The translations under genes were made by a program, and so were the position numbers. 64,000 nt of DNA, taken from positions 372,705-436,704 of the forward strand of contig NZ_LMHW01000001.1 in the NCBI RefSeq assembly GCF_001428525.1, written 5' to 3'. Positions within the stretch are counted from its first letter, which is position 1. Each line of letters opens with the position of its first letter. The notes under the pieces are model-generated. The model was not told where the DNA came from. It made no database searches and was given only the letters and a program-made list of their open reading frames with translations. This DNA is from Flavobacterium sp. Root186 (GTDB taxonomy: Bacteria > Bacteroidota > Bacteroidia > Flavobacteriales > Flavobacteriaceae). Shown piece after piece: positions 29,060 to 64,000 of this stretch.

Positions 29060-29084
29060 TGTTATCATATATTTTTTCAAGTAT

Positions 29085-39209: not shown

Positions 39210-39218
39210 AAAAAAAAC

Positions 39219-40568: not shown

Positions 40569-40577
40569 TTTTTTTTT

Positions 40578-42683: not shown

Positions 42684-42709
42684 TTTATTCTTTTAGTTTT
42701 TAATAATTT

Positions 42710-44305: not shown

Positions 44306-44330
44306 TTTTGTAATGATTAACTTTTTATTT

Positions 44331-44465
44331 AAACCCGACAGGTTTTTAAAACCTGTCGGGTTTAAATTGTGACTTGCAATTGGAGTTTCTAAGCGATGCA
44401 TCGACTTCCTTCAGCAAGACAAAGCGTGCCTTCACCCACAATTCACAATTTACAATTCACAATTG
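44331..44465. repeat. Compound intercistronic inverted repeats (GH105-GH43 gap)
   Basis: The near-perfect palindrome AAACCCGACAGGTTTT plus its complement has 16-base arms (44331-44346, 44348-44363) with one central base. Beyond it ATTGTGA...CACAATT words form a second inverted arrangement up to the GH105 stop (44469). CGATGCATCG lies in between (44393-44402). The gap holds no gene. Confidence 0.75.
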
Positions 44466-44468
44466 CTT

Positions 44469-45689: not shown

Positions 45690-45711
45690 TTCAAAATATA
45701 TTTAAATTCTA

Positions 45712-46917: not shown

Positions 46918-46927
46918 ATCAAATCGT

Positions 46928-48118
46928 TTATTTATTCAATTCTACTGCGCTTAATAAAAATGCTGCTAAGGCCGGTGAACTATTATCTTTTGTTTTGCTT
47001 TTTGCATAATATTCATTTGTACCGTCGCGAAATGGTTTTCCTCCCAAACCAACATTCGAAGAAACATTTGAAATCGTAATTTCATTATTTTCATTTGTTT
47101 TGACAAATTCTTTTACAAATGCGTTAAAAGATTTTTGTGCTGTTTTTTTATAAGATGATGCTAAATAGCCTTTATCAGCCGCTTTTGCCAAACTATAAAT
47201 TATCATTGCAGAACCTGACGATTCTAAATAATTTCCAGACAGTTCCGGCTTATCAGCAACCTGAAACCACAATCCTGACGGGCTTTGCACCTGAACGGCA
47301 CTTTTTGCTATTTCATTCAAATATCCCAATAATTCTTTTTGCTTTGGATGATTCTTAGGGAAATAATCCAGCGTTTCAACCAATGCCATCATATACCAGC
47401 CAATTCCTCTGTTCCAAATTGTTGGTGAAGTTCCTGTTTCGGAATTTGCCCAGCCAATTTCTTTACTTTCGTCCCAAGCCTGATATGGCAATCCTGTCTT
47501 TTTATCTAATAAATGATTATGAACCAATTCAAATTGTTTGGCAACATCATCTAAACTTTTACCATTTTCATATTTAACTGTGTATTGTGTATAAAAAGGT
47601 TCAGCCATATACAAACCGTCAATCCACATTTGATTTGGGTAAATTTGTTTGTGCCAAAATCCGCCGCTTGCCGTTCTGGGCTGACTTTCGATTTGTGTTC
47701 TTAATTGTTTTATTACCGTTAAATAACGATTGTCTTTTGTTTCTTCATATAAATTAAACAACAATTTTCCGGGATTTACATAATCGATATTATATTCTTT
47801 GATATCGTATTTGGCAATATTTCCACTGCTGTCAATCAATTCATCTGCGTATTCTTTTATATAATTGAGATATTTTTTGTCTTTTGTTTTTAGATATAAT
47901 TTCTCAAAAGCAGACAAAGTCAAACTCATTTTATAATCCCATTTTGGCTTCTCGGTTCCGTCGATCTGCCAGGCCTTTGGGTATTTATTTATAATGGTCG
48001 CCGCTGTTTTCTCTGACCATTTTGAATTGGCAGAAACTACAATTTTTTCAGTATTTTGACCAATTGCAAAACTGCTGAAAAGAGAGAACAAAACAACAGC
48101 TGTTCTTTTATAACTCAT
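46928..48118 (-). CDS. GH105 unsaturated rhamnogalacturonyl hydrolase (first copy)
   Basis: A 396-residue third GH105 paralog: signal peptide (MSYKRTAVVLFSLF...AIGQ), QMWIDGLYMAEPFYTQYT, QAWDESKEIGWANSETGTSPTIWNRGIGW and FRDGTNEYYAKS. ATG 48118 is preferred for its A-rich context and clean signal peptide; ATG 48142, only two bases after the DUF4861 stop, is possible. A still longer frame to 48241 overlaps that gene. It follows the short DUF4861 protein in PUL2. Confidence 0.92.
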   Translation of the reverse strand: MSYKRTAVVLFSLFSSFAIGQNTEKIVVSANSKWSEKTAATIINKYPKAWQIDGTEKPKWDYKMSLTLSAFEKLYLKTKDKKYLNYIKEYADELIDSSGNIAKYDIKEYNIDYVNPGKLLFNLYEETKDNRYLTVIKQLRTQIESQPRTASGGFWHKQIYPNQMWIDGLYMAEPFYTQYTVKYENGKSLDDVAKQFELVHNHLLDKKTGLPYQAWDESKEIGWANSETGTSPTIWNRGIGWYMMALVETLDYFPKNHPKQKELLGYLNEIAKSAVQVQSPSGLWFQVADKPELSGNYLESSGSAMIIYSLAKAADKGYLASSYKKTAQKSFNAFVKEFVKTNENNEITISNVSSNVGLGGKPFRDGTNEYYAKSKTKDNSSPALAAFLLSAVELNK

Positions 48119-48144
48119 TTTTATTGAAACAAATTTCAACATGA

Positions 48145-49110
48145 TTACATCTTCCCTTTTTTGTTCAATACTTCTAATTGTGCATCTAAATATTTCACGA
48201 AATCTTCCTGAGATTTTATTCCGTTTTGCTCTTGTTCCCAAGCTCCTAAAAGATAAAAATCAGTAGCTTTTGTTGTTGGTTTAAAAACCAATAAATAATC
48301 CAAATCCGTATCAGCGATATTTTCGATGGTGTTAACTTCATAAAAAATAGCCAGTCCTAATTTGTCCGGAACCAAAGATTGTGTACCATATGTAGCTATA
48401 TAAGCCCATTTTTTGCTTTTGCTTTCTTTTTTAAGCAGTTCTGTATTCTTTTGTTTTACAATTCCGGTACAGATTCCTTTAATTTCTTTGGATGCCTGAA
48501 TGGTATGTTTTGTATATAACTGATCTGGCTTTATGGTTAAAGTCGAAGTAAAATCGATTTTATCAGATGCTGTTTTCCATCCGTAATAATTCACTTTTAC
48601 ACCCGATTCGTTGTCTTTATTTACAACTGTTGCAATCGTAGAATCTACTTCGCGGAAATGCAGTTTTTCATTGTTTAAATAACGATCAATAGATCCAATT
48701 CCGATTGCTTTTCCTGCTTTCAGAATATCGGCTCCCCAGTCGCTCATTTCGTGATAGGAATCAAAATTATCCTGTCCGACTTTTGGTAAAATCATGGCAG
48801 AAGTTTTCTTTCCAAAAATATCAATTGCATTTCTCCAGTCTAAGTATAAACGGTAACCAATTCGGTTATTTTCCCAGCCCGGACCTTCGTAACGAATATC
48901 AAAAGAATGATCTGTATGTTCGGGGGCCAGTTTTAGTCGGTCAACATTATTAAAAGTAGTTCCGCCAATATATTTGCGTCCTTCCCATTTTCCGTCTGTT
49001 TTTACCGAAATTTCGGCGTAAGTTTTAGCCGTTTTAATATCATATTTTTGGGCATTAACTGATGTAAAACCAATTAAAAATAATGCTGCGGCTGTAATTT
49101 TTGTTTTCAT
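48145..49110 (-). CDS. DUF4861-domain protein (short form)
   Basis: A 321-residue secreted protein with signal peptide (1-20) and the DUF4861 core (RYEGPGWENNRIGYRLYLDWRNAIDIFGKK, MSDWGADILKAGKAIGIGS). It lacks the N-terminal extension of the long paralog at 37007-38302. Function unknown; family members accompany pectin and uronic-acid enzymes. Here it sits between the esterase and three GH105, so a role in uronyl oligosaccharide processing is inferred. Confidence 0.78.
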   Translation of the reverse strand: MKTKITAAALFLIGFTSVNAQKYDIKTAKTYAEISVKTDGKWEGRKYIGGTTFNNVDRLKLAPEHTDHSFDIRYEGPGWENNRIGYRLYLDWRNAIDIFGKKTSAMILPKVGQDNFDSYHEMSDWGADILKAGKAIGIGSIDRYLNNEKLHFREVDSTIATVVNKDNESGVKVNYYGWKTASDKIDFTSTLTIKPDQLYTKHTIQASKEIKGICTGIVKQKNTELLKKESKSKKWAYIATYGTQSLVPDKLGLAIFYEVNTIENIADTDLDYLLVFKPTTKATDFYLLGAWEQEQNGIKSQEDFVKYLDAQLEVLNKKGKM

Positions 49111-49121
49111 TGTATGGTAAA

Positions 49122-50057
49122 TTATTTGAATATCTTATTTAGAAATTTGATTGTAAAATTGACTGTTTTATAAAACCAAGGTTCAAAAAACCAAAAGGAA
49201 TGCGGTGAGTTTTCGATTGTTTCAACTTCATTGTAGATTTTATATTGATTTAAAATCTTTATCATATCATCTCTCCCTGCATGAAACCTGTCAATACTGC
49301 TGTTTATAAACAATGTTGGCGGCGTATTTTTGTCGGTATGGCTTAAAGCCGATGCATTTTTCCAATTCTCTGTTTTTTCTTCATAAGAACCTCCAAGCCA
49401 AAACGATGCCATTTCTCCTTCTGAAGATTCGGGATGCCTGAATGCCAAAACGCCATCTATATCAATAATTGCATTTACTTTTGATGATGACTTACTTTGA
49501 TTTGAAGCATCTTCAAAAGCTGGATTTTGATTTGTTGTACCAATCAAAGCTGCCATCTGCCCTCCCGAAGAACAGCCTAAAACAGCAATTTTGTCTGGAT
49601 TTACTTTGAATTTTACTGCATTATCTTTTATAAATTTAATCGCATTTTTTACATCATAAACTCCATACGGATATTTTGCTTCGAGTGATAACCTGTATTC
49701 TATTGTAAAACACGAATAACCGTAGGAAGCAATTTCCTTTGCCAAAGCGTTCATCTGAGTTTTATTTCCAGATCTCCAGCCTCCGCCATGAATCATGATG
49801 ACTGCGGGATTTTGCTTTTTTGTGTTGTATACAAAAGCATCTAAATGCAATTCTCTTCCACTTTCTTTAAAGTAAATTACATCTTTAATTTGATAAAGCC
49901 CCTTGTGTTTCTCTATAAGCGGAATTGTAATGAACGGATATTTTTTTATCAATTTAGTATAAGTGCTTTTTACCGTGTACGACGTGTCGACAGGGTAAGT
50001 CTGCTGGGCGTTTATTGCACAAGACAGCATGAATAAAATCAATATTATTTTTCGCAT
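49122..50057 (-). CDS. Secreted alpha/beta-hydrolase esterase
   Basis: A 311-residue secreted esterase (signal peptide 1-17). Oxyanion MIHGGGWRSGN, nucleophile Ser in VLGCSSGGQMAAL, and His in SPHSFWFFEPW form the alpha/beta-hydrolase triad; the Asp in SIDRFHAGRDD is likely. It resembles carbohydrate esterase/feruloyl- or acetyl-esterase types. In PUL2 it may remove acetyl or feruloyl groups from pectin side chains. A hairpin separates it from susD, so its expression may be lower. Confidence 0.85.
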   Translation of the reverse strand: MRKIILILFMLSCAINAQQTYPVDTSYTVKSTYTKLIKKYPFITIPLIEKHKGLYQIKDVIYFKESGRELHLDAFVYNTKKQNPAVIMIHGGGWRSGNKTQMNALAKEIASYGYSCFTIEYRLSLEAKYPYGVYDVKNAIKFIKDNAVKFKVNPDKIAVLGCSSGGQMAALIGTTNQNPAFEDASNQSKSSSKVNAIIDIDGVLAFRHPESSEGEMASFWLGGSYEEKTENWKNASALSHTDKNTPPTLFINSSIDRFHAGRDDMIKILNQYKIYNEVETIENSPHSFWFFEPWFYKTVNFTIKFLNKIFK

Positions 50058-50084
50058 TACAATCTTTTTATTTTTTAGTCAGAA

Positions 50085-50112
50085 AGGAGTTCGACACTTT
50101 GGTCAAACTCCT
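50085..50112. terminator. Stem-loop between susD and the esterase gene (PUL2)
   Basis: AGGAGTTCGAC and GTCAAACTCCT form an 11-bp stem with one mismatch. It lies about 50 bases past the susD stop in the leftward mRNA. No long U-tract follows, so it may attenuate or process the transcript to favour susCD. Confidence 0.6.
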
Positions 50113-50160
50113 CTTTAACTTCTTCAAAAAAACAAATAGTCTCAAAAAACTAACAAATTA

Positions 50161-51834
50161 CTAATAACCAGGATTTTGAGGAAAATCTTTATTTTGGTTT
50201 AAATCCAATGCCACTTGCGGAATTGGCCTTAAAATTTTAAGCTGTCCGCCAACACCAACAAAATTAGCTGCCTTAATTTTATAATTATGAGCCGATGCTC
50301 TTGCAACTAATGTTCCGGTACGTTTTAAATCAAACCAGCGTTTATATTCTCCTAACAATTCTCTTCCTCTTTCATCTAAAATATAATCGATGTTGAATTC
50401 TGCTGCTGTCGCATTTGCAACGCCTGCTCTTCTTCTCACTTCATTTAAACGATCTAAACCAGTCCCTGGCTGTCCGGCTTTTAAATAAGCTTCGGCAGCA
50501 ATTAAATAGGTTTCTCCAAGTCTTGAAACAATAATATCTCTTGTACTTACAGGACCTGTGCTCGAAGGCGTTGTAGGATCCGGATCGTCAAATTTCTTAA
50601 CCGGAATGGTATAGCAGTCTAAGTTTTTAATCAAAGTATGCGCTGCAGAATATTCCCCCCAAGGATGATACACAAACGTCGCCGATTTTCTTGAAGCGTT
50701 TGCTGTTTCCCAAGCAATTCTGTCTGCTGGCGTAAACCATTTTGGCTCATAAAAATGTCTCACTTTTAATGAAGCTGGATTTGTGCTTCTGTAATACGGA
50801 TAATACAACACGTTTTTTGTAACGCCGTTTGTAGTTTCAGGACCCTCCAGAATTTCTGTCATAAAAGTACCTTCCCATCTTTTATCTCCTTTTTCATAAA
50901 GACCTAAAGCGTAATCTGTTGGGCATAAATTATAACTTCTTAAAGGTGCACCTGTTTCGGCACCTCCTAAATACGAACTGAAATAGTAAAACTGGTTGTT
51001 TCCAAGTTTTGTAGGGTCTGTACTTGTTGAAGCTTTATCATACTGAACAGAGAAAATAGTTTCGGCATTTAAATCGTTTCCGGGTTTAAATAACTGATCA
51101 AAGGCAAGTGCAAGTGTTTGCCCGCCAATTGCTGCATCAGCGTAAGCGGCTGCTTTTGCGAAATCATCAGCTTTGCCAAAAGTTTCATATCCTCTGGTTA
51201 AATACACTTTTGCCAGTAAATCGTTTACGGCTCTTTTGTTGACTTTTCCTGTTGTGCTGTAAGAGTTTGTTCCAACACTTGCCAAAGCTGCATCTAAATC
51301 TGAAATAATCTGAGTATACACTTCTTCAGCAGTATTTCTGTGGAAAGATAAAACCGGTGTTGTTATATTTTCATTTACAATTGGAACTCCGCCATAAGTC
51401 TGAACCAATAAAAAATACGCTTGTGCTCTCAAAAATCTGGCTTCGCCCACCTGCGTGTTCAAATTAGCTGTTTGTTCTGTTATAGCTGAATAATAAACGG
51501 ATTTATTTACAGATTGAATTAATTGATAACAAGGCGTATACAAATCCGCAACATTATCCGAAGAAGGTATTAAAAGTGTATACTGGCTTAAACCTGCCGG
51601 TTCTGGAGTTCTTCCTTCGGCATACATATCAGTTCCTGATTCAAATAACCAAGGATTTCCTCCATAAATGCTCTTAAGCCATGCATAATTTGTATTGATC
51701 AATAACTGGTATCCTGATGCTGTTTTATAAGTGGCATCGGCAGGAACATTTGACAAGCTTTCTTCTTCTATATAATTGCTGCATGAATTTAAAACCATGG
51801 CAGCAATTCCTAATATTATTATTATTTTTTTCAT
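50161..51834 (-). CDS. SusD/RagB family glycan-binding lipoprotein (PUL2)
   Basis: A 557-residue SusD-like lipoprotein: lipobox LNSCSNY followed by IEEE, a surface-export type signal. N-terminal TPR-like part with ARFLRAQAYFLLVQTYGGVPIVNEN and C-terminal RLGETYLIAAEAYLKAGQ, DYILDERGRELLGEYKRWFDLKR and NPGY end. It captures pectin-derived oligosaccharides for the SusC encoded 12 bases upstream. Confidence 0.96.
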   Translation of the reverse strand: MKKIIIILGIAAMVLNSCSNYIEEESLSNVPADATYKTASGYQLLINTNYAWLKSIYGGNPWLFESGTDMYAEGRTPEPAGLSQYTLLIPSSDNVADLYTPCYQLIQSVNKSVYYSAITEQTANLNTQVGEARFLRAQAYFLLVQTYGGVPIVNENITTPVLSFHRNTAEEVYTQIISDLDAALASVGTNSYSTTGKVNKRAVNDLLAKVYLTRGYETFGKADDFAKAAAYADAAIGGQTLALAFDQLFKPGNDLNAETIFSVQYDKASTSTDPTKLGNNQFYYFSSYLGGAETGAPLRSYNLCPTDYALGLYEKGDKRWEGTFMTEILEGPETTNGVTKNVLYYPYYRSTNPASLKVRHFYEPKWFTPADRIAWETANASRKSATFVYHPWGEYSAAHTLIKNLDCYTIPVKKFDDPDPTTPSSTGPVSTRDIIVSRLGETYLIAAEAYLKAGQPGTGLDRLNEVRRRAGVANATAAEFNIDYILDERGRELLGEYKRWFDLKRTGTLVARASAHNYKIKAANFVGVGGQLKILRPIPQVALDLNQNKDFPQNPGY

Positions 51835-51846
51835 TTGATATCTTTA

Positions 51847-54800
51847 TTAAAATTTAACACTTAATCCCAATTGCGTTGTTACAGATGCCGGACGGTTTAC
51901 CCCAAAAGGAGAAGCGGCCCACTCTGGATCATATCCATCAAAATCTGTAAATACAAATGGATCTAAAACATTCACATAAATCCTCAAATTACTAATTTTA
52001 AGTTTTTTCAATAATTCTGAATTCAATGTGTATCCTAAAGATATATTTTTGATTTTTACGTAAGAAACATCACGATAGTAACCAAATAAAGAAGTCCAAT
52101 AGGCACCCGCACCCGTTGCAACCGGTCCCGGTCTTGGGTTTGTGTTATTGGCATTGGCTTCGATACCTGTACCATTTGTTGGAATAAAATAATCCATTGC
52201 CAATTTTTGACGGCCTCTGTCGCTTACGTCTGCAAAGTTTTGGTGAAAAGTACTCAAAACTGTCTGCCCCTGACTTGTCAATACAGAAAAATTGAAATCG
52301 AAATTCCCAACAGTCAGTTTAGAATATAAACTTCCCTGCCAATCCGGATTTGCATTTCCTATTACCGTTCTGTCATCCTGGTTAAATTTTCCATCGCCAT
52401 TTAAATCTTTTGGTCTCGCCTGCCCCGGAGCTTGCCCGTAAGTTGCTGCACGTGCTGCTTCGCTTTCCTGCCAAACGCCATCATAAACGTAGTTGTAATT
52501 AGGGTTTAACTCTGAACCCAGAATTAATTTATTTCCAATATCACTAACCTTGTCCTGATTGTAAATTGACTCTAATTTGTTTACGTTTTTAGTAAAGGTA
52601 AAAGTCGTTTCCCAGTTTACGTTTTCGCTTTTGATGTTTTTTGTCGTTAATAAAACTTCGACACCTTTATTGCTTACAGAACCCACGTTTGCAAAAGTGT
52701 TTTTCCAGCCGCTTTCTGCAGGTAATTGCTGCTTGTAGATTAATTTATCTGATAATCTGTCGTAAACATCAACACTTCCTGAGATTCTGTTTTTCAAGAA
52801 ACCGAAATCAAGACCAAGGTTTAATTCTCGTGTTTTTTCCCATGTTAAATCCTGATTCGCCAGATTTTCTGACTGCCAGCCCGAAACTACATTGGCTCCG
52901 TTTGCATAAAAAGTCTGCTGATTTAATAACGCCTGAGAAGTATAAGGCGCTACGTTATCGTTTCCTGTATAACCTAAACTCGCACGAAGTTTTAAGTCTG
53001 AAATTACATTACTGTTTGCTAAGAAAGATTCTTTGCTGATTTTCCAACCTAATGCTACAGAAGGGAAACTCTGCCATTTATTACCTTCAGATAAAACAGA
53101 TGAACCATCCCATCTTGTAGAAGCAGTTAATAAATATTTGTCTTTAAAAGTATAGTTTAAACGAACGGCATAAGAGCTTAACGTATTCTTTAAATAACCT
53201 GAACTGATGTTGTAACTAGTCTGAACTCCAGATCCCATATTATTTGACCCAGTATCAAAAGGCTGATTGTTAGAATATAAATACGAAGTTTCATCAACAT
53301 TTGAATACAAACTCTGCAATAATAAAACACTAAAATCATGCACTTCAGCAAAAGTATGTTTCAAATCAATTTGGTTGTCCCAAGTATAATTGAAGTTATT
53401 GAAGTTTTTTATTGAGGCTGAATTTTTTCCGTTTAATGTAACTCCGGCATTTGTCTGTGCACCATAAGCTGCACTTGTAACTGTATTTTCTATACCGGCA
53501 GAAAAAGTGGTTTTAAATGAAAGCCATTTTAATGCTTGGTATTGAAAGAAAACATTTCCAACGGTCTGCCATGTTTTTTCTGTCTGCGAAGAATTGGCAA
53601 TTTCCATTAATGGGTTTACCGCACTGGTTTTATTAATTGCCCAGGAACCATCAGGATAAGTTAATTTCCCCGGAAGGAAAAATAAAGTTCCTACTCTTTC
53701 ATTTCCATCGGCATCAACTGCCCAAGGTGACATTAAAGGGCTAAGTCTGAAAGCATCCTGCATGGCTAAATCACTTCCTAACTGCGTGTCAACACGAGCA
53801 ATTGTAACATTGGCACCTGTTGTAAATTTGTCGTTTATTTTATGATTTAATCCTAATTTAAAAGAGTATTTATCAGTTCCGTCATTATCGATAAGTCCTT
53901 CATCGCTTTGAATTCCGAATCCTAAATTGTAGCTCAAACCAGAATCTGAACGGCCTGTAACATTTAAGTAATTGTTTTGGGTCATTCCGGGTTTTAGAAC
54001 AGCATCAGCCCAGTCAAAATTGTAGCCATTGTTTGCTCTTGTAACTAATAAAGGGCTTTGATTTCCTGCCAAAGCAGCAAGCTGCGCAGGAGTCTGAGTT
54101 GCCGGCGTTGCGCTCATATAGGCAACTTGGTGAAATTTCCACCATTCTTCGCCATTCATCATTTTTGGTAATCTTGCCGCCGTTTTTGTTCCGTAAGAAG
54201 AATCAAAAGTTACATTGATTCCTGATTTTACATTAGCACCGCTTTTAGTTGTAACAATAATAACACCGCTGGCTCCTCTTGAACCGTAGATTGCTGCTGA
54301 CGAAGCATCTTTTAAAACGTCCATTCTCGCAATATCCTGTGGATTTAGAAAGTCAATATTATCAACCGGAACGCCATCTACAACATATAATGGAGACGAT
54401 CCTACTAATGAATTATTTCCTCTAATAACCACTTTAAATCCGTCGCCGGAACGCCCTGAAGTTGACGAAATCGTAACTCCGGGTGTGCTTCCCTGAATTG
54501 CTTCCAATGCACTTGTAGTATTTCTTTCTGTAATGGTTGCCGCACTAATAGTACTTACAGAACCTGTAAGATCTGTTTTCTTTACAGAACCGTATCCTAC
54601 AACCACAACTTCGTTTAATGAATTTGACTGTTCTGCAAGGCTTACGTTAATTTTTGTTTTTCCGGCAACGCTTACTTCCTGCGTTTGAAAACCTAAATAG
54701 CTTATTATTAAAACAGCTTTATTATTGGTTACATTTATTTTAAAACTTCCTTCAAAATCCGTCGAAGTTCCGTTTTTAGTTCCTTTTTCCTGGATATTAA

Positions 54801-54951
54801 CGCCCGGCAGCGATAATCCTGTCGCATCTGTAATTTTCCCTTCTATTGTTGTAGACTGTGCATTTATAGTATTGCACAGGAGGAAATTCAGGAAAAATAA
54901 AAATACAAGGTTGTATTTTATTTTTTTCTTTAATGGTTGTTTAATTTTCAT
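51847..54951 (-). CDS. SusC/RagA TonB-dependent outer-membrane transporter (PUL2)
   Basis: A 1034-residue SusC homolog: hydrophobic signal peptide (to about 32), N-terminal CarboxypepD-like domain (TTIEGKITDATGLSLPGVNI), TonB box and plug (LNEVVVVGYG, NTTSALEAIQGSTPGV, PLYVVDGVPVDN, SAAIYGSRGASGVIIVTTK), and a C-terminal barrel ending in GLSVKF. It imports pectic or rhamnogalacturonan oligosaccharides. It is preceded by GH28 (40-base gap) and followed by SusD. Confidence 0.97.
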   Translation of the reverse strand: MKIKQPLKKKIKYNLVFLFFLNFLLCNTINAQSTTIEGKITDATGLSLPGVNIQEKGTKNGTSTDFEGSFKINVTNNKAVLIISYLGFQTQEVSVAGKTKINVSLAEQSNSLNEVVVVGYGSVKKTDLTGSVSTISAATITERNTTSALEAIQGSTPGVTISSTSGRSGDGFKVVIRGNNSLVGSSPLYVVDGVPVDNIDFLNPQDIARMDVLKDASSAAIYGSRGASGVIIVTTKSGANVKSGINVTFDSSYGTKTAARLPKMMNGEEWWKFHQVAYMSATPATQTPAQLAALAGNQSPLLVTRANNGYNFDWADAVLKPGMTQNNYLNVTGRSDSGLSYNLGFGIQSDEGLIDNDGTDKYSFKLGLNHKINDKFTTGANVTIARVDTQLGSDLAMQDAFRLSPLMSPWAVDADGNERVGTLFFLPGKLTYPDGSWAINKTSAVNPLMEIANSSQTEKTWQTVGNVFFQYQALKWLSFKTTFSAGIENTVTSAAYGAQTNAGVTLNGKNSASIKNFNNFNYTWDNQIDLKHTFAEVHDFSVLLLQSLYSNVDETSYLYSNNQPFDTGSNNMGSGVQTSYNISSGYLKNTLSSYAVRLNYTFKDKYLLTASTRWDGSSVLSEGNKWQSFPSVALGWKISKESFLANSNVISDLKLRASLGYTGNDNVAPYTSQALLNQQTFYANGANVVSGWQSENLANQDLTWEKTRELNLGLDFGFLKNRISGSVDVYDRLSDKLIYKQQLPAESGWKNTFANVGSVSNKGVEVLLTTKNIKSENVNWETTFTFTKNVNKLESIYNQDKVSDIGNKLILGSELNPNYNYVYDGVWQESEAARAATYGQAPGQARPKDLNGDGKFNQDDRTVIGNANPDWQGSLYSKLTVGNFDFNFSVLTSQGQTVLSTFHQNFADVSDRGRQKLAMDYFIPTNGTGIEANANNTNPRPGPVATGAGAYWTSLFGYYRDVSYVKIKNISLGYTLNSELLKKLKISNLRIYVNVLDPFVFTDFDGYDPEWAASPFGVNRPASVTTQLGLSVKF

Positions 54952-54991: not shown

Positions 54992-56422
54992 TTATTTGTT
55001 TACTTTTTTTCCATTGATATATGTATTTATAAAATTGGTATTCTTTACGTTTTTTAATAAATAGACTGAGTCTACTTTTTCTATTTTCACATTTTTAAGC
55101 GTAATGTTTTCTACTGGGGATTCTGCATAGCCTTCTGCCCAAACGCCATATTTTCCACCATTTTTTACCTTAACATTTTCGAGATTTATATTTCTTACTG
55201 TTGGTATAAAATTTCCTGTTTGCGAGCCATAGACGTTATAAAACATGGTAACCAGCAAAACGCATTCTTTTACGGTTCCTACTTCAAGGTTTCTAACAAA
55301 AATATTTTCAATTACTCCTCCTCTTTTAGAATTGGTTTTGATACGAATGGCACGATCTAAATTTGGACTATCCATTACACAATTCTCGACAAACACATTA
55401 TTAACTCCGGCAGAAATCTCACTTCCTATCACAACTCCGCCATGACCGTCGATCATTTTACAGTTTTGAACAATTATATTTTTACTAGGAATCGCTACTC
55501 TTCTTCCATCGGCATCGCGGCCGGCTTTAATAGCAATGCAATCGTCTCCCGTATTGAAAGTGCAGTTTTTGATTATTACATTTTGAGAATATTCAGGATC
55601 ACAGCCATCATTGTTTGGTCCGTGGCTGTTTACGGTTACACCGTCAATAATGATGTTGTTGGTTTTTATGGGATGCAGAATCCAAAAAGGAGAATTGATA
55701 ACTGTTATATCTTTTACCAAAACGGTATTACATTCAAAAAACTCAATAAAATTTGGGCGAAGATATCTTCCTTCTCCAAATACTCTTTCTGCAACCGGAA
55801 TCCCTTTTTCAGCCATATCAACCAAAACTTCTCTATTTGTTGGATCATTTTGGGACGGAATTCCTTTTTTCCAGCCATAACCTTTTCCTCCAGACCAAAT
55901 CCACCAATTTGTACTGTCTGCCTGACCGTTTAAAGTCCCTTTTCCTGTAATGGCAACATTGGTTTTGTTTTTAGCATATATAAGAGGAGAGTAATTCATC
56001 ACTTCTGTTCCTTCCCACGAAGTATGAACGATTGGATAGTCTTTTGGATTTAAACTGAAAAGAATTTCTGCATGATCTTCTAAATGCAGGTTTACATTGC
56101 TTTCTAAATGAATGGCTCCGGTTAAGTATTTTCCATTTGGAACCAGCACTTTTCCGCCGCCATTTTCTGTACAGGTTTTAATTGCTTTTTCGAAGGCTAA
56201 AGTGTTTAAAGTTTTACCATCAGAAACAGCTCCAAAATCATTTATATTATAGGTTTTATCCTGAAATTTTGTTTGAGGAAGACTTTTTATGGTCAGTTCT
56301 ATGTTTTTCCATGGGTCAGATTCAGAGAAAGCGACAACTTTTTTAGCGCAGGATATAGTCAAAACAACCATAATACTGGCAAAAACAATTGATTTATACG
56401 CTATAATCCTGTTTATAATCAT
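54992..56422 (-). CDS. GH28 polygalacturonase-type lipoprotein (PUL2, first gene)
   Basis: A 476-residue GH28 with a lipoprotein signal (TISCAKK, no acidic run, so periplasm-facing). Catalytic motifs are more classical than in the distal copy: NNDGCDP, GDDCIAIKAGRD and RAIRIKTNSKRGG. GH28 removes galacturonate from pectic chains. Being the first gene of the operon, immediately next to the LacI-linked operator, it may also be read strongest. Forty bases separate it from susC. Confidence 0.92.
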   Translation of the reverse strand: MIINRIIAYKSIVFASIMVVLTISCAKKVVAFSESDPWKNIELTIKSLPQTKFQDKTYNINDFGAVSDGKTLNTLAFEKAIKTCTENGGGKVLVPNGKYLTGAIHLESNVNLHLEDHAEILFSLNPKDYPIVHTSWEGTEVMNYSPLIYAKNKTNVAITGKGTLNGQADSTNWWIWSGGKGYGWKKGIPSQNDPTNREVLVDMAEKGIPVAERVFGEGRYLRPNFIEFFECNTVLVKDITVINSPFWILHPIKTNNIIIDGVTVNSHGPNNDGCDPEYSQNVIIKNCTFNTGDDCIAIKAGRDADGRRVAIPSKNIIVQNCKMIDGHGGVVIGSEISAGVNNVFVENCVMDSPNLDRAIRIKTNSKRGGVIENIFVRNLEVGTVKECVLLVTMFYNVYGSQTGNFIPTVRNINLENVKVKNGGKYGVWAEGYAESPVENITLKNVKIEKVDSVYLLKNVKNTNFINTYINGKKVNK

Positions 56423-56467: not shown

Positions 56468-56512
56468 TGTAATCGATTACACGAAAGTAGAAAATATGTT
56501 CCACTCAACCAA
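56468..56512 (-). promoter_or_regulatory. PUL2 promoter with overlapping LacI-type operator
   Basis: The perfect 14-base palindrome TGTAATCGATTACA (56468-56481) is a typical LacI-family site with a central CG. Immediately upstream in the minus direction is a near-consensus -7 TACTTTCG (56489-56482) and, 20 bases further, a TTG (56512-56510). The operator would cover the start site of transcription, and the GH28 start codon is 46 bases away. Confidence 0.75.
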
Positions 56513-56632
56513 ATTTATTTAGAAATTTATTGTATTTTTAATTTTTATTAAGAATTATAATTACATTTAATGCAAAAATTATTATAATTTATTATCATTG
56601 TAAAATAAAAAACGTTGTAGTAATTCATTATG

Positions 56633-56644
56633 GTAATCGATAAC
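56633..56644 (+). promoter_or_regulatory. Second LacI-type operator near the regulator promoter
   Basis: GTAATCGATAAC shares the TAATCGAT core with the operator at 56468-56481, with one mismatched pair. It lies about 70 bases before the LacI start and upstream of its -7 box, so autoregulation is likely. Confidence 0.6.
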
Positions 56645-56673
56645 ATTAAATATTACGTTATCTAAAAAAAATG

Positions 56674-56681
56674 TATTTTTG
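56674..56681 (+). promoter_or_regulatory. -7 box of the LacI gene
   Basis: TATTTTTG matches TAnnTTTG, 32 bases before the start codon. The -33 element is weak (TTA with an 18-base spacer). Confidence 0.65.
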
Positions 56682-56713: not shown

Positions 56714-57742
56714 ATGAGCGAAAAAGTAACCATTTATGATATTGCCGAAAAATTAAATATCACTGCAGCTACTGTTTCCAGAGCGTTGAATAACAACCCG
56801 AAAATAAAAGAAAGCACTCGTGAGTTGGTTATTAAAACCGCTGCCTCAATGAACTATAAGCAAAACAAACTTGCTTTAGCATTAAAAAGCGGCCGAAGTA
56901 ATAATATTGGCGTAATTGTACCGCGTATAGACAGTAACTTTTTTGCCTCTGTGATCAGAGGAATTGAAGAAGAACTGCATCCTCATGGTTATCAGGTAAT
57001 TATTTGCCAGACACATGAAAGCAAAAAAAGAGAAAACGAAAATTTATATACTTTAATAGATGCTCAGGTTGACGGAATTTTAATGTCTGTAACTGATGTA
57101 ACTGACGAAAATGACGGTGCATTTCAATATGTTCTTCAAAAGAATGTTCCGCTGATTTTTTTCGATAGAAGCAAACATATTGAAGGTGTAAGTTCTGTTA
57201 CGATAAACGACTTTAGAGGCGGTTATTTAACGACAAAGCATTTAATTAATGAAGGCTGCAGGCATATTGCACATTTCTCTGGAGATCAATCGCTGGAAAT
57301 CTTTAAAAACAGGTTTTTAGGCTACAAACAAGCTTTGCTGGATCACGGAATTGATTTTAAGGAAGAATATGTTATTTATACGAAAAGTGCTGTCGAAGCA
57401 GGAAAAGAAGCGGTTGATAAACTGCTGCAATTAGAAACACCGCCGGATGCTATATTTTCTGCGAGTGATTTTGCGGCATTAGGCGCGATACAAGAATTAA
57501 AAGAAAGAAACATTAGTATTCCGAAAGAGTTTTGTGTGGCTGGTTTCAGTAACGAGCCTTTTACTAAATTCATGGAATTATCTATAACTTCTGTAGATCA
57601 GTCGCCGCTCGAAATGGGAAAAATGGCAGCACGCGTTTTCTTAGAACAGGTTGATAAAACAGAAACAATTAAAATCGAAAAAAAGGTAGTTCTCGCACCA
57701 GAATTACACATCCGTAAATCTTCATCAAGAAGCACCTTTTAG
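56714..57742 (+). CDS. LacI-family transcriptional regulator of PUL2
   Basis: A 342-residue LacI/GalR regulator: N-terminal helix-turn-helix (VTIYDIAEKLNITAATVSRALN, residues 5-27) and hinge, then a sugar-binding periplasmic-type domain (NIGVIVPRIDSNFFASVIRGI..., SVTINDFRGGYLTTKHLI, VAGFSNEPFTKFMELSITSVDQSPLEMG). Its divergent position and two shared-core palindromes in the intervening gap make it the probable controller of PUL2, and perhaps of the convergent galacturonate genes. Galacturonate or a derived keto-sugar is a plausible effector, not shown. Confidence 0.9.
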   Translation: MSEKVTIYDIAEKLNITAATVSRALNNNPKIKESTRELVIKTAASMNYKQNKLALALKSGRSNNIGVIVPRIDSNFFASVIRGIEEELHPHGYQVIICQTHESKKRENENLYTLIDAQVDGILMSVTDVTDENDGAFQYVLQKNVPLIFFDRSKHIEGVSSVTINDFRGGYLTTKHLINEGCRHIAHFSGDQSLEIFKNRFLGYKQALLDHGIDFKEEYVIYTKSAVEAGKEAVDKLLQLETPPDAIFSASDFAALGAIQELKERNISIPKEFCVAGFSNEPFTKFMELSITSVDQSPLEMGKMAARVFLEQVDKTETIKIEKKVVLAPELHIRKSSSRSTF

Positions 57743-57961: not shown

Positions 57962-59584
57962 CTAAAGCGATACTCCTCTTTTCCAAGGAATGAAATCGTT
58001 TTGGTTTAATATTGCTGCTTTGGTTTTGATTGTTCCGCTGGCAACATCTATAATAAACTCTAACATTTCATCTGCCATTTCATCAATTGATTTTTCTCCG
58101 GTGATGATTCCCCCCGTGTCAATATCAATGATATCAGACATTTTATTTGCTAACTGTGTGTTTGAAGAGATTTTTACAACCGGTGCAATTGGGTTTCCTG
58201 TCGGAGTTCCTAAACCTGTTGTAAACAATACCATGTTTGCTCCGGAACCAACCATTGCTGTTGTACATTCAACGTCATTTCCTGGCGTACAAAGTAAAGT
58301 TAAACCTGGTTTAGAGATGTATTCACCGTAATCGAATACTCCTGTAATAGGCGAAGTTCCTCCTTTTTTAGCAGCTCCTGCAGACTTCATTGCATCTGTA
58401 ATTAGACCGTCTTTGATGTTACCCGGAGACGGATTCATATCAAATCCTGAACCAGCATCTACAACCGTTTTTTCGTACCATTGCATTAGATCCAAGAAAC
58501 GTTTTCCGCCTTCGTCTTCAACACATCTGTTTACTAATTCCTGCTCAACACCACATAATTCAGGGAATTCAGAAAGAATTGTAGTTCCGCCTAAAGCAGC
58601 CAATAAATCTGAAGTAACTCCTAAAGTCGGGTTTGCAGAAATTCCAGAGAATCCGTCAGATCCACCACACTCTAAACCAATTTTTAATTTAGATAATGGA
58701 GCTGGTTCTCTCTTTATTTCGTTTGCTTTTTTAATCGCTTCGAAAGTATCTTTTACAACACTGCTTAACATCGTTTCGATTGTTCCGATAGCTTGCTGAT
58801 CGTAAATTAAAACCGGTTTTTTACTGTCTGGATTAATTGCATCTAAAGCATCTTTGAAAATCTGAATTTGAAGATTCTGACATCCCAAACTTAAAACAGT
58901 TGCTCCGGCAACGTTTGGATTATTTACATAACCTGCCAATAATTTAGCCAGACTATGAGAATCCTGACGAATTCCGCCGCAGCCGCCTTGGTGCGTGATG
59001 AATTTTACTTCAATATTGTTGAATAAATTAGCATCGTTTGAAGCCGCTTCATTACCAGCACCGCCAGTTTCTGATTTTACTAAAGAACGTAATAATAATT
59101 GATAATCATTTTCTTTAGGCTTCATCAATTCTTTCTCAAAAATATCCTTTAAGATTTCGATATTTCTGTTTTCACAAAATACTAACGGAAAAAACAACCA
59201 AACATTTTCAGTTCCAACTTGTCCGTCTTCTCTATGATAGCCTTGCCAAGTTCTGTCTTTCCATTTGTCGATGTTTGGAGCAGTCCAGCCAATTGTTTCT
59301 GTTTTACCAGTAACTTTATCGCTTTCGTGTTTTACATTTTCAGTAGAAAGCAATCCTCCTCTTTCGATTCTTGCACTAGCTTTCCCTACTAAAACTCCGT
59401 ACATAATGATTCTGTCCCCTACATTAAAAGGAACCATTGCGATCTTATGTTTCATCTTTACATCTGTCTCAATCGCAACTGATTCTCCTTCGAAATCAAT
59501 TACTTCGCCAGCTGTAAGATTCACCAAAGCAACCGCTACATTATCGGTTGGGTGAACTTTTATTAATTTTTTCTGCACTGCCAT
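57962..59584 (-). CDS. uxaA: Altronate dehydratase
   Basis: A 540-residue full-length UxaA that converts D-altronate to 2-keto-3-deoxygluconate, in the galacturonate pathway. The N-terminal SAF-like domain (KVHPTDNVAVALVNL..., RIIMYGVLVGKA) and the C-terminal domain (HQGGCGGIRQDS, ECGGSDGFSGISANPTLG, NPSPGNIKDG, GCTTAM-like VECTTAMVGSGANMVLFTTG) are both present; iron-binding cysteines are likely in the CGG motifs. It follows uxaB by about 40 bases. Typical length. Confidence 0.96.
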   Translation of the reverse strand: MAVQKKLIKVHPTDNVAVALVNLTAGEVIDFEGESVAIETDVKMKHKIAMVPFNVGDRIIMYGVLVGKASARIERGGLLSTENVKHESDKVTGKTETIGWTAPNIDKWKDRTWQGYHREDGQVGTENVWLFFPLVFCENRNIEILKDIFEKELMKPKENDYQLLLRSLVKSETGGAGNEAASNDANLFNNIEVKFITHQGGCGGIRQDSHSLAKLLAGYVNNPNVAGATVLSLGCQNLQIQIFKDALDAINPDSKKPVLIYDQQAIGTIETMLSSVVKDTFEAIKKANEIKREPAPLSKLKIGLECGGSDGFSGISANPTLGVTSDLLAALGGTTILSEFPELCGVEQELVNRCVEDEGGKRFLDLMQWYEKTVVDAGSGFDMNPSPGNIKDGLITDAMKSAGAAKKGGTSPITGVFDYGEYISKPGLTLLCTPGNDVECTTAMVGSGANMVLFTTGLGTPTGNPIAPVVKISSNTQLANKMSDIIDIDTGGIITGEKSIDEMADEMLEFIIDVASGTIKTKAAILNQNDFIPWKRGVSL

Positions 59585-59623
59585 AATCCTTATTCTTTTT
59601 GCTTTTTGTTTTTTTTGCTTTTT

Positions 59624-61072
59624 TTATTTTATTCTTTCCTGAAACTTGGCAAAACCAGCTTCAATTCCATTTGCATCTATTTCTTCTAAACCAATTGTAA
59701 TCGCTTTTGTTAATCCAGGAATTTCAGTTAAATCTTCATCCCAAAAACTTTTATTTTGCAAAGTAAGTCTCGCTATTTTTTCATAATCATCTGATTTCCA
59801 TAAACCATCAAAAAACGAAACGATATCTTCACTGTCATTAACCGGTAAGCTTTGCCCATTCCATGTTCCTTTGTAGAAACGTATTAAAGCAGCAAATGCA
59901 AAAGTCAAATGTAGTGGCAATTTTCCATGAATATCAACATATCCTGTTAAACTTGGCAAAACACGAACTTTAAATTTCGAAATTGAATTTAAAGCAATTG
60001 ATGACAATAAATGCTTAATAAACGGATTTCTGAAACGATCTAAAATTTCTTCAGAGAAACTTGCCAATTCTTGTTTATCCATGTTTAAGGTTTCATTGAT
60101 TTCCTCAAAAACAGCTTTATTAATAAATTCTCCTGTAAAAGCATTATCAACAGTTTCTTTTACAGTTTCATTTCCGTAAAGTAACGAAAATGGCACCATA
60201 GCAGTATGCGCTCCATTTAAAATTCTAACCTTACGTGTTCTGTAAGGCTGCATATCTTCTACAATTTTTACATCAAGATCTGTTTTTTCAAACGGAAGTT
60301 TTGCTTTTAATTCGTCATCTCCTTCGATAACCCATAAAAAGAATGATTCTGCACTCACAATCAAATCATCTTTATAATCCAACTGACTGTTATATTCTTC
60401 GATTTGATCTTTCGGATAACCCGGAACGATTCTGTCAACTAATGTATTATGGAAACTACAGTTGTTTAAAATCCAGGAAATAAATTCCTGACCTAGTTTC
60501 CAGTCTGTACAATATTTTAAAATAACTTCTTTTAAAGTATCTGAATTATAATTAATTAACTCACAAGGAATAATTGTTAATCCTTTATCAGCGGCACCAT
60601 TAAAATGTTTAAATCTTTCATGCAAAAGTACGGTTAATTTTGCAGGGAAAGATACAGGAGGCTGCATTGTAGGCAAGTCTGAAGCAATATATTCAATTCC
60701 GGCTTCAGTTGTATTTGATATAATAAAAGCCAGTTCTTCTTCTTTTGCTAAAGCTATATACTCTTTAAATGAAGCGTAAGGATCAACTGCTTTTACAATA
60801 TTAGTTATTAATTCTTTTTCCTGAATTTCTTCTCCTTTTTTTACACCTTTCATAAACAAAGTGTATAAACCATCCTGTGCATTGATCATATTCACCAAAC
60901 CTTTATCAATAGGCTGAACAACAGCGATTCCGGCATTAAAATCTGCTTTTTGGTTTAACTTCTGAATTGCATATTCTACAAAAGCTCTTAAGAAATTACC
61001 TTCTCCAAATTGAACTATTTTAATAGGAAGCCTGTTTGAAAACTCTGAATTTGATCTGTTAATTTTTTCCAT
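59624..61072 (-). CDS. uxaB: Tagaturonate reductase
   Basis: A 482-residue long-chain (mannitol-type) dehydrogenase. N-terminal NAD-binding IKIVQFGEGNFLRAFVEY and later EYIAKEDAG-independent motifs such as IVPGYPKDQIEEY, KVRILNGAHTAMVPFSLLYGNETV and LRFYKGTW-type ends place it in UxaB. It reduces tagaturonate to altronate. It is preceded by a terminator after eda, so it may have its own promoter along with uxaA. Confidence 0.94.
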   Translation of the reverse strand: MEKINRSNSEFSNRLPIKIVQFGEGNFLRAFVEYAIQKLNQKADFNAGIAVVQPIDKGLVNMINAQDGLYTLFMKGVKKGEEIQEKELITNIVKAVDPYASFKEYIALAKEEELAFIISNTTEAGIEYIASDLPTMQPPVSFPAKLTVLLHERFKHFNGAADKGLTIIPCELINYNSDTLKEVILKYCTDWKLGQEFISWILNNCSFHNTLVDRIVPGYPKDQIEEYNSQLDYKDDLIVSAESFFLWVIEGDDELKAKLPFEKTDLDVKIVEDMQPYRTRKVRILNGAHTAMVPFSLLYGNETVKETVDNAFTGEFINKAVFEEINETLNMDKQELASFSEEILDRFRNPFIKHLLSSIALNSISKFKVRVLPSLTGYVDIHGKLPLHLTFAFAALIRFYKGTWNGQSLPVNDSEDIVSFFDGLWKSDDYEKIARLTLQNKSFWDEDLTEIPGLTKAITIGLEEIDANGIEAGFAKFQERIK

Positions 61073-61247
61073 TTTAATTTTAACTTTAAAGTGTTATAAA
61101 TAACCACTTAATACCTTATTGACATTTTAATACATTGTAAATGAAACATTACACTCGTAATTAAAACAGATCTTGCTGTGAGGAATGACAAGATTTATTT
61201 TTCAAGCGTAATGCTCAATTACAATCTCTAAAATCTAAAAAAAACGC

Positions 61248-61282
61248 ATAAATAAGGATTGGCATGATTACTCCTTATTTAT
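61248..61282 (-). terminator. Terminator overlapping the eda stop codon
   Basis: On the minus strand ATAAATAAGGA and TCCTTATTTAT form a perfect 11-bp stem with a 13-base loop, followed by GCGTTTTTTTT. The stem includes the eda stop codon (61279-61281), so transcription from uxaC-kdgK-eda likely stops here unless readthrough occurs. Confidence 0.88.
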
Positions 61283-61947
61283 TTTCTAATATTTTTTATA
61301 ATGTCAAGAACCTGTTTAACCTTAACCGTTAAACCATCGAAATCTTTATTATCTAATATATCTTTTGAAATCAATTGTGATCCTAAACCAACACAGGTTG
61401 CCCCTGCGTTAAGCCAGGAACTCAAGCTTTCAACTGTAGGATAAACACCTCCTGTAGGCATAATGTTTGTCCACGGACAAGGTCCTTTTATCGCTTTTAT
61501 AAATTCTGGTCCGTAAATATCTGCAGGAAATAATTTTACAATTTCACAACCTAATTCTTCTGCTCTTGCAATTTCCGTAAGCGTTCCGCAGCCTGGTGAC
61601 CATAATACTTTTCTACGATTACAAGCAATTGCTATATCTTCTCTAAATACCGGAGTTACAATAAAATTAGCTCCTAAACTCATATATAAGGAAGCCGAAG
61701 CCGCATCTGTAATAGAACCAACACCCAAGATCATTCCCGGTAATTCTGCTAAAGCATATTTATTTAAAGCTCCAAAAACTTCATGTGCAAAGTCACCTCT
61801 GCTGGTAAATTCCATTAATCTGGAACCTCCGTCATAACAAGCCTTCAAAACTTTTTTACTTAATTCAATATCAGAATGAAAAAACAACGGCACCATTCCG
61901 TTATCTTTCATTGTCTGTGCAACCTCTATTCTTGAATATTTTGCCAT
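61279..61947 (-). CDS. eda: KDPG aldolase
   Basis: A 222-residue class I aldolase that splits 2-keto-3-deoxy-6-phosphogluconate to pyruvate and glyceraldehyde-3-P (or 4-hydroxy-2-oxoglutarate). The Schiff-base Lys is in EIVKLFPADIYGPEFIKAI, and LMEFTSRG holds the catalytic Glu/Arg. MPTGGVYPTVESLSSWLNAGATCVGLGSQL closes the barrel. It overlaps nothing and lies 12 bases downstream of kdgK. Confidence 0.95.
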   Translation of the reverse strand: MAKYSRIEVAQTMKDNGMVPLFFHSDIELSKKVLKACYDGGSRLMEFTSRGDFAHEVFGALNKYALAELPGMILGVGSITDAASASLYMSLGANFIVTPVFREDIAIACNRRKVLWSPGCGTLTEIARAEELGCEIVKLFPADIYGPEFIKAIKGPCPWTNIMPTGGVYPTVESLSSWLNAGATCVGLGSQLISKDILDNKDFDGLTVKVKQVLDIIKNIRK

Positions 61948-61959
61948 ATCTCTAATTAA

Positions 61960-62982
61960 TTATCTTGATACTAATGCAGAACCATCACCATCAATCATAT
62001 TTTCAACTTCTTTTAAAGTAACCAGATTATAATCTCCTGCAATTGTATGTTTTAAACAGCAGGCTGCTACTGCAAAATCTAATGCTCTCTGGTTATTATT
62101 TTGATATTCTAACAATCCGTAAATCAATCCGCCCATAAAAGCGTCACCGCTTCCTACTCTGTCTACAACTGGCGTAACTTCTTTTACAGCAGCCTGATAA
62201 ATTGTTTTTCCGTCAAATAAAACACCGCCAATTCTTTGGTGCGATGCACTTACAGAATAACGAAGCGTTGTTGCTGCGATTTTTAAATTCGGAATTAATT
62301 CAAACAACTTTGAGTATAAGACCGGAAGTGATTCCTGATCCTGATAATTAGGGTTTTCTTTTGGAATTCCTAACATAAAATAAGCAGTATCAATATCGCC
62401 TAAAATAACATTGCTGTATTGCAGCATTTCCGGCATTACTTCGCTTGGCGTTTTGCCATACTGCCAAAGTTTTGATCTGTAATTTAAGTCGCAGGAAATT
62501 TTAATTCCCAATTTATGAGCTGCTTTAATAGCTTCTAAACACGCTTCCGCAGCGGTTTGAGAAATCGCTGGCGTAATACCGCTCCAATGGAACCACTCTG
62601 CTCCTTCTAAAACTTTTTCCCAGTCTATCTGACCTTTTTCAATAGTTGCCATTGCACTATGCGCACGATCGTAAACTACATTACTGCCGCGTGTTCCGGC
62701 TCCGGTTTCCAGAAAATAGATTCCTAAACGATCTCCTCCATAAACAATGTTTTTGGTCTCGACATTCATTTTTCGCATTTCTTTTAATGCCGATAAACCA
62801 ATTTCGTTTTCAGGTAATCTTGTAACAAATTCGGCATTTACACCATAATTAGCCAAAGAAACACATACATTAAATTCTCCGCCTCCGTACGTAGCACCAA
62901 ATGCTGTAGATTGCGAAAAACGTAAGTGTCTTTCTGTCGATAAACGCAGCATGATTTCTCCAAATGTAACTACTCTACTCAT
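61960..62982 (-). CDS. kdgK: 2-keto-3-deoxygluconate kinase
   Basis: A 340-residue PfkB-family kinase. VVTFGEIMLRLSTERHLRFSQ and GGGEFNVCVSLANYGV fit KDG kinase; GSGDAFMGGLIYGLL holds the catalytic Asp. It phosphorylates KDG for Eda. ATG 62982 (MSRVVTFGEIM) is preferred; a longer frame to 63012 adds a Lys-rich stretch not seen in the family. It lies between uxaC and eda. Confidence 0.93.
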   Translation of the reverse strand: MSRVVTFGEIMLRLSTERHLRFSQSTAFGATYGGGEFNVCVSLANYGVNAEFVTRLPENEIGLSALKEMRKMNVETKNIVYGGDRLGIYFLETGAGTRGSNVVYDRAHSAMATIEKGQIDWEKVLEGAEWFHWSGITPAISQTAAEACLEAIKAAHKLGIKISCDLNYRSKLWQYGKTPSEVMPEMLQYSNVILGDIDTAYFMLGIPKENPNYQDQESLPVLYSKLFELIPNLKIAATTLRYSVSASHQRIGGVLFDGKTIYQAAVKEVTPVVDRVGSGDAFMGGLIYGLLEYQNNNQRALDFAVAACCLKHTIAGDYNLVTLKEVENMIDGDGSALVSR

Positions 62983-63007
62983 TATTTTATATTTTTTTAT
63001 TTTTTTT

Positions 63008-63152
63008 ACCATTAAGGCATTAAGTTAATTAGATGTACTCACTTTTCTCTTGAGTTAAATTAAGCTTATTAAGATCTCACCCTTAATTATCTTTTGAGCA
63101 TTTAACCTTAAATACAAAGGCAAAAACTTAATTATCTTAATCTCTTAATGGT
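63008..63152. repeat. Intercistronic inverted repeat (uxaC-kdgK gap)
   Basis: Arms of 27 bases (63008-63034 and 63126-63152) pair with about five mismatches, with CATTAAG/CTTAATG words reiterated between. It fills the gap from the uxaC stop to the kdgK start region. Confidence 0.7.
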
Positions 63153-63168
63153 TTAAAAAAACTTTTTT

Positions 63169-64000
63169 TTAGAATTTGAAATATTCTTTTGCGTTATTGT
63201 ATGAGATGTCAGAAACTAATTTCCCAATCCATTCCATATCGTTTGGAAGTTCTCCGCGTTTGATTTCATCTCCTAAAAGATTACATAAAATACGTCTGAA
63301 ATACTCGTGTCTTGGGAAGGATAAGAAACTTCTTGAATCTGTAAGCATTCCAACAAAACAGCTGATTAATCCCATATTTGAAAGCGCGTTTAACTGCTTT
63401 GTCATTCCGTCTTTTTGATCTAAAAACCACCATCCAGAACCAAATTGTACTTTTCCGCGAACACTTCCGTCGTTGAAATTTCCAATCATCGTTGCCATAA
63501 CTTCGTTATCAGCCGGATTTAGGTTATAAATAATAGTTTTAGACAATTTATCTTTACTGTCCAATGCATTTAAAAAGCTTGACAGTTTTTGTGCCTGCGG
63601 ATAATCTCCAATAGAATCCCATCCGGTATCCGGGCCTAAAATTCTGTGCATACGAGCATTATTATTACGCAACGCACCTAAGTGAAACTGCTGCACCCAT
63701 CCAAATTCATGATAGGTTTCAGATAAAAATAATAAAACGGCACTTTGGAATTTTAAAGCTTCTTCTGAAGATAAAATTCTATTTTCTCTTTTCTTTTTGA
63801 AGATTGAATTTATTTCAGATTCTGTAAATTCTTCAAAATAAATCTGATCTAAACCGTGGTCACTTAATTTACAGCCATTTGCATTAAAAAATTCAATTCT
63901 GTTTCTTAATGCAGTTTGTAAATCAGCATAAGTATTAATTGCAACTCCGGACACATCCCCTAATGTGTCCAGATATGCATTATAACCATCATTAGCAATT
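63169..64000 (-). CDS. uxaC: Glucuronate/galacturonate isomerase, N-terminus beyond the window
   Basis: About 277 codons of the C-terminal part of UxaC, which interconverts D-galacturonate and D-tagaturonate (or glucuronate and fructuronate). FEEFTESEINSIFKKKREN, LFLSETYHEFGWVQQFHLGALRNNN, GPDTGWDSIGDY, and LTDSRSFLSFPRHEYFRRILCNLLGDEI are family motifs. The frame is open to the window edge, so an internal GTG at 63954 is not the true start. It is the first enzyme of the galacturonate route encoded downstream. Confidence 0.93.
   Translation of the reverse strand, partial: IANDGYNAYLDTLGDVSGVAINTYADLQTALRNRIEFFNANGCKLSDHGLDQIYFEEFTESEINSIFKKKRENRILSSEEALKFQSAVLLFLSETYHEFGWVQQFHLGALRNNNARMHRILGPDTGWDSIGDYPQAQKLSSFLNALDSKDKLSKTIIYNLNPADNEVMATMIGNFNDGSVRGKVQFGSGWWFLDQKDGMTKQLNALSNMGLISCFVGMLTDSRSFLSFPRHEYFRRILCNLLGDEIKRGELPNDMEWIGKLVSDISYNNAKEYFKF

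Follow-up and report, generated by a model that had tools for sequence, protein, structure and literature searches.

The LacI/GalR-family protein encoded next to the pectin locus PUL2 most likely is a local repressor of a pectin/galacturonate regulon that would act by promoter occlusion. This reading draws on features computed across the window, i.e. the whole 64,000-nucleotide stretch of DNA analyzed here, and its relatives: the operator sites, their conservation, their register with the -7 element, the gene context, and the co-occurrence of the sites with the regulator. The regulator gene, lacI, and the first gene of PUL2, encoding a GH28 protein, are divergent, and the 291 bp gap between them contains two copies of the motif, O1 and O2 (Table 1). 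Both palindromes are present where the sequence-only reading had placed them, O1 as an exact copy and O2 with two mismatches. That reading had described the operators as bracketing the PUL2 promoter and the regulator gene, which is a loose description: O1 does lie on one predicted start site, whereas O2 is located upstream of the other promoter and not on its start.

Table 1. Features of the PUL2-lacI region, in window coordinates
Feature	Position	Strand	Basis or remark
Remaining PUL2 genes	37007..54951	-	one strand, gaps of at most 129 nt; operon inferred from spacing
GH28 (polygalacturonase-type) gene, first gene of PUL2	54992..56422	-	profile matches
O1 operator, TGTAATCGATTACA	56468..56481	.	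exact 14-bp palindrome; predicted extent -4 to +10 relative to the PUL2 start
Predicted PUL2 transcription start	56476..56477	-	inside O1; 4-5 nt past the -7 element, by the F. johnsoniae rule (PMC6847099)
-7 element of PUL2, TACTTTCG	56482..56489	-	abuts O1
-33 element of PUL2, TTTG	56510..56513	-	20 bp from the -7 element; conserved column block
O2 operator, GGTAATCGATAACA	56632..56645	.	imperfect, 2 mismatches; lacI promoter positions -54 to -41, approximately
-7 element of lacI, TATTTTTG	56674..56681	+	conserved in most rows of the 30-locus alignment
LacI/GalR-family regulator gene, 342 aa product	56714..57742	+	profile matches
Galacturonate catabolic genes uxaA-like, uxaB, kdgA, kdgK-like and start of uxaC	57962..63999	-	convergent with lacI

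The remaining PUL2 genes include those for SusC, SusD, an esterase, a DUF4861 protein, three GH88-type proteins and an arabinanase-like protein, together with pectate lyase/pectinesterase, GH28-like, PaeY-like and BT3233-like genes. On the other side of lacI, the galacturonate genes belong to a same-strand run, kduI-SDR-uxaC-kdgK-kdgA-uxaB-uxaA, with gaps of 5 to 207 nt, which may be a single operon. The operator of this run lies beyond the end of the window, at about 66250, and the site of an MFS transporter gene is also just past the window. A search for the motif before uxaC had been proposed; the motif does not precede uxaC directly but is found before kduI, at the head of the run that contains uxaC. 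An AraC-family regulator gene (32944-33876, plus strand) is located between PUL1 and PUL2 and encodes a possible extra activator. Elsewhere in the window (26918-29101, minus strand), there is a fusion of a class II aldolase-type domain with a short-chain dehydrogenase domain, which presumably resembles the fusion of rhamnose catabolism.

Enrichment of the motif is not seen over the entire window: at up to three mismatches, seven copies were found versus 5.2 expected, and window-wide enrichment at this level was rejected because 28 of 100 shuffles reach the same count. O1 and O2 are the only matches with at most two mismatches, all others carrying three; assuming independent bases, the chance expectation is 0.0007 exact matches per window and 0.0025 sites with up to two mismatches in the 291-bp gap. 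The contrast drawn by the sequence-only reading between PUL2, repressed by LacI, and PUL1, apparently activated by a hybrid sensor, is a fair one in light of this distribution and of the hybrid two-component gene (15358-19398, minus strand; sensor propellers, kinase, receiver and AraC HTH) that adjoins PUL1, although PUL2 may have an activator in addition to the repressor. Despite the background level of the loose matches, we accept O1 and O2 as real because they are kept across orthologous loci, and an unrelated chance palindrome was rejected on the same grounds.

In an alignment of 30 loci (the window and 29 close orthologs), both sites are retained throughout: 29 loci have an exact O1, the remaining one differs from it by a single change, and the O2 core GTAATCGATAACA does not vary in any of the 30. 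A broader comparison encompassed 198 distinct regions upstream of lacI orthologs, obtained by merging identical regions from 234 loci: 107 from the genus, 47 of 55 non-Flavobacterium places, and 80 named loci, which are the best 80 of at least 536 confirmed, include Galbibacter, Maribacter, Formosa, Lutibacter, Salegentibacter, Fulvivirga and Portibacter, and in many cases repeat genomes from the other sets. The family sample consisted of 397 genomes, 54 with a match and 47 places read; the other samples were 18 diverged orthologs and 398 genus genomes, 130 of them matching, with part of the matches fetched. The gene start of one locus, L219, was shifted by 18 bases by hand. The distal site is present in 173 of the 198 regions, the proximal site in 146, both in 134, and neither in 13. 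The sequence-only reading had pointed to orthologous lacI genes as the place to look for the operators, and there, in the genus and the family, the palindromes are conserved. The asymmetry of O2, ATCGATAACA, is retained in 118 of the 134 paired regions, and this conserved departure from symmetry suggests that O2 is a deliberately weaker operator. Among 20 class-level relatives with less than 50% identity, a site (at most two mismatches, within 600 bp upstream) was found in only two, both TGCAATCGATTGCA, and relative L295, with 61% identity, has no site within two mismatches in the 600 bp upstream.

In Flavobacterium johnsoniae, positions -12 to -5 are taken up by the -7 element, 4-5 nt before the start, and the -33 element is much less evident (PMC6847099). 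The extent of O1 relative to the PUL2 start given in Table 1 follows from the application of this rule, and the claim of a site directly on the probable start stands, as a prediction, with O1 abutting the -7 box; the companion claim, that the second site lies upstream of the lacI -7 box, is correct as well. In the promoter table, 101 rows from the 107 genus loci (six without a usable distal site were left out), a box abuts O1 in 90, as TAnnTTCG in 59 and TAnnTTTG in 31; the remaining 11, inspected by eye, mostly have a similar box overlapping the operator by 1-2 bases, and the TTTG 20 bp upstream of the -7 box is conserved in most rows. An initial candidate for the PUL2 -7 element, TAAATTTG, further upstream, was rejected, given that many orthologs have T in place of its A; it contains the conserved TTTG that is correctly placed as the -33 element of the box beside O1.

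The register is not an artefact of the search pattern: a scan with the operator only, in the best 80 of at least 536 named loci, found 139 exact sites, with the TAnnTTYG box at offset 0 in 124 and at offset -2 in nine, and with no others within -6 to +14. The same arrangement recurs at individual targets: the operator (at most two mismatches) is present upstream of all 69 GH28 genes and all 59 kduI genes tested, with the box (at most one mismatch) abutting it in 67 and 53 cases, respectively, and a site within 260 bp upstream was detected for just three of the 12 MFS transporter genes of the named set. Genes with less than 250 bp upstream, or with a match starting past the first 60 residues, were left out of this test.

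The -7 box and the operator together form a 22-bp composite, TANNTTYGTGYAATCGATTRCA, with six exact copies in the 5.53 Mb genome. These adjoin PUL2, kduI, the MFS transporter gene beside kduI, a second GH28 gene that is divergent from a GH141-type gene, a susC gene, and a pectate lyase gene with CBM77; five of the six are located at pectin/uronate or adjacent genes, and the sixth precedes the susC gene, of unassigned substrate. Looser matches are at background: genome-wide, the 12-base core at two mismatches occurs 301 times versus 325 for the reversed control, and the composite has five matches at three mismatches, with six control matches at up to three. Only exact and near-exact composites carry weight. 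A two-mismatch composite with the exact core GTAATCGATTAC (L004:2464; G000:C13:624962-624983) separates a pectate lyase gene from the divergent gene of a cNMP-binding (Crp-type) protein, with a -7-like box on the Crp side, and the repressor may also control this Crp-type regulator. A near-operator, TGTAATCGATTAAA (L007:2111; G000:C1:281610), flanked by genes for an SDR and an extracellular solute-binding protein, is without an abutting -7 box and perhaps belongs to another LacI.

The regulator contains a LacI-type HTH (PF00356, 45.9 bits versus a cut-off of 27) and a sensor domain matched above cut-off by PF00532 and PF13377. It scores below the cut-off for all 19 NCBIfam families matched, including CcpA (TIGR01481; 186.9 versus the curated 442.35 bits); its best matches among solved structures are CcpA chains. 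All 14 orthologs aligned, which come from many genera, have the identical HTH stretch TAATVSRALN. The protein shows no sign of a C-terminal tetramerization tail: the match to PRK09526 (LacI-type, 358 positions) extends only to position 332, the missing end being what we take to be the tetramerization part. The aligned orthologs stop at about the same C-terminal point, two of them with short odd tails. Because the orthologs end without such a tail, the regulator probably acts as a dimer.

We infer the following mechanism. A dimer would bind the palindrome TGYAATCGATTRCA, which at most targets directly continues the -7 box at its 3' end, and the bound repressor would cover the transcription start and block RNA polymerase; a site over the transcription start is the classic position of a repressor. 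As pectin is broken down, a uronate intermediate, the likely candidates being galacturonate and 2-keto-3-deoxygluconate, would enter the cell and bind the sensor domain, releasing the repressor. This would jointly derepress PUL2, the kduI-uxa-kdg run, the MFS transporter, the second GH28 gene, susC and the pectate lyase gene. O2, which is asymmetric and probably weaker, is positioned just upstream of the lacI promoter, where it would provide for autoregulation. The central proposal of the sequence-only reading, repression of PUL2 by LacI, thus gains support from the ortholog-conserved operators and their start-site position, with repression itself as the probable outcome. Counting against it are the 64 of 198 regions in which one or both sites are missing, 13 of them without either, and the low share of transporter genes with a site.

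The genome encodes eight proteins with a LacI-type HTH, and the palindrome is similar to cre, the site bound by CcpA-type regulators, both compatible with the sites belonging to another regulator, be it one of the other seven LacI-type proteins or an unrelated factor, with the neighboring lacI being incidental. The distribution of the sites makes this very improbable. Of 150 genus genomes, 51 have a match to the regulator at E 1e-60 or better, and 47 of these carry the ortholog (at least 58% identity); the composite with at most one mismatch is present in 46 of these 47 but in none of the 103 genomes without the ortholog, compared to two matches of a backward control pattern across all 150. 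The sole exception, G061, contains an operator variant, and the other four matching genomes (G069, G104, G117 and G141), in which the best LacI match is at most 37% identical, lack the composite. Moreover, at least one site is found upstream of the regulator gene itself in 185 of the 198 regions. Gene content and regulator are not fully separable here, given that all 45 genomes with uxaB also carry lacI; for this reason, we took kduI as the gene-content control, and none of the eight genomes that have kduI without the ortholog contains a composite site. It also appears quite unlikely that the protein activates rather than represses, or that it represses PUL2 from O1 but acts as an activator of lacI at O2. 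O2 does lie just upstream of the expected lacI -33 position, and some LacI-type proteins activate from a position just upstream of the -33 element, but the O1-type sites cover the predicted start at most targets, which fits blocking.

The pairing of O1 with O2 allows a further, tentative suggestion, to which we would give less than an even chance: a single loop would hold the pectin PUL and the repressor gene, with the dimers on O1 and O2 meeting on the same face of the helix and the spacing evolving in helical-turn steps. Spacings were counted only where both sites are present (80 of the 107 genus loci; 134 of the 198 distinct regions). The spacing is 163-165 bp in the close group, and one diverged case among the first 30 loci is 185 bp, differing by 21 bp. 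Across Flavobacteriaceae genera, the modes are 164, 174, 185 and 196 bp, and outside the family the spacing is 197 bp in Fulvivirga; the 49 later spacings outside the 163-165 group cluster about 174, 185 and 196, with R of 0.593 at 10.5 bp and a mean phase of 6.52 versus 6.5 for 164. In the set of 37 diverged spacings, the phase R is 0.55 for O1-O2, compared to 0.20 for O1-to-ATG and 0.23 for O2-to-ATG. After thinning to proteins less than 75 to 95% identical, the Rayleigh p is at most 7e-5 (n 23-81, the 163-165 group included), and by parsimony about 15.4 of 21 spacing changes are in phase (p about 0.04, with the modes binned by eye).

We give a slightly better than even chance to the reading in which O1 and O2 act independently, without a loop, and the pattern of spacings reflects common descent; this is compatible with the repressor reading. 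An independent-pairs test of helical phase on the tree, from which L095 (incomplete protein) was left out, yields p of about 0.34 for 16 pairs, one or both sites are missing from 64 of the 198 upstream regions, and the protein shows no sign of the tetramerization tail; the in-phase clusters and the parsimony count point the other way. A free period scan of the 37 diverged spacings prefers 11.8 bp over 10.5 bp, and out-of-phase spacings occur (148 three times, 180 and 201, with 130 and 208 at the margin). The spacing ladder hints at GalR-like looping; with the kinship-corrected tests in disagreement, it is a lead and not a result. The gal operon of Escherichia coli, a model for looping by two dimers, involves a repressor of the same LacI/GalR family, with GalR dimers on two operators about whole helical turns apart; in the present case, by contrast, there are two divergent genes, the spacing is larger, and the loop is putative (PMC4693257).

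Among the characterized or predicted systems, the closest parallels come from Bacteroides, where KdgR (BT0487) and UxaR (BT0824) are predicted LacI-family uronate regulators (PMC3878776; PMC4052901). The regulator described here shares with them the family, the occurrence in Bacteroidota, and the glucuronate/galacturonate utilization genes as predicted targets (PMC3878776); sites were found upstream of both the MFS transporter gene and the kduI-uxa-kdg run. By described function, as opposed to comparison of protein or motif, the regulator is best read as similar to KdgR and UxaR. Some periplasmic or extracellular proteins likewise belong to the KdgR regulon, but the present system differs in that a SusC/SusD pectin PUL, secreted pectinases and the uronate pathway share one operator, and that study places a pectin regulon under a hybrid two-component system, HTCS_Rgu-1 (PMC3878776). 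The palindrome fits the cre consensus of CcpA of Firmicutes quoted in PMC9598941; unlike those of CcpA, the sites here are mostly at pectin/uronate genes and not global. In the pectin PUL of Gramella flava, ExuR, annotated as a hexuronate repressor by annotation only, is likewise a regulator placed within a flavobacterial pectin PUL (PMC5306329). A literature text search, with most subscription papers and the regulon databases outside its scope, found no account of the regulator, its operator or LacI control of flavobacterial pectin genes, and the regulator is not mentioned in the available parts of PMC12125979, PMC5334617 and PMC9723704. The principle, a repressor on the start site, is ordinary; for the network of this regulator, we found no earlier description.

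The regulation of PULs is mostly discussed in terms of activation by hybrid two-component systems, SusR-like proteins and sigma/anti-sigma pairs. Here, a plain repressor seems to place the cytosolic uronate pathway in one regulon with a SusC/SusD pectin locus and with secreted pectinases encoded at scattered sites. The 22-bp composite makes it easy to test genomes of Flavobacteriaceae for pectin regulons and, with few genetic tools at hand for this group, is a possible inducible promoter part. The loci also comprise a natural data set on selection for helical phase between two operators; if the loop is real, then it and the fusion of operator and -7 box would make up a phylum-specific repression module readable from sequence alone.

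Two variants of the locus organization were observed. In seven genus genomes, lacI is present as a tandem duplicate, with both copies 83-88% identical to the query (G060:C22, G066:C104, G162:C67, G185:C68, G213:C12, G249:C9 and G296:C36). At L089 (G148:C45:43465-43486), the proximal operator also has a -7 box facing GH28, which may give this genome a second promoter for the PUL.
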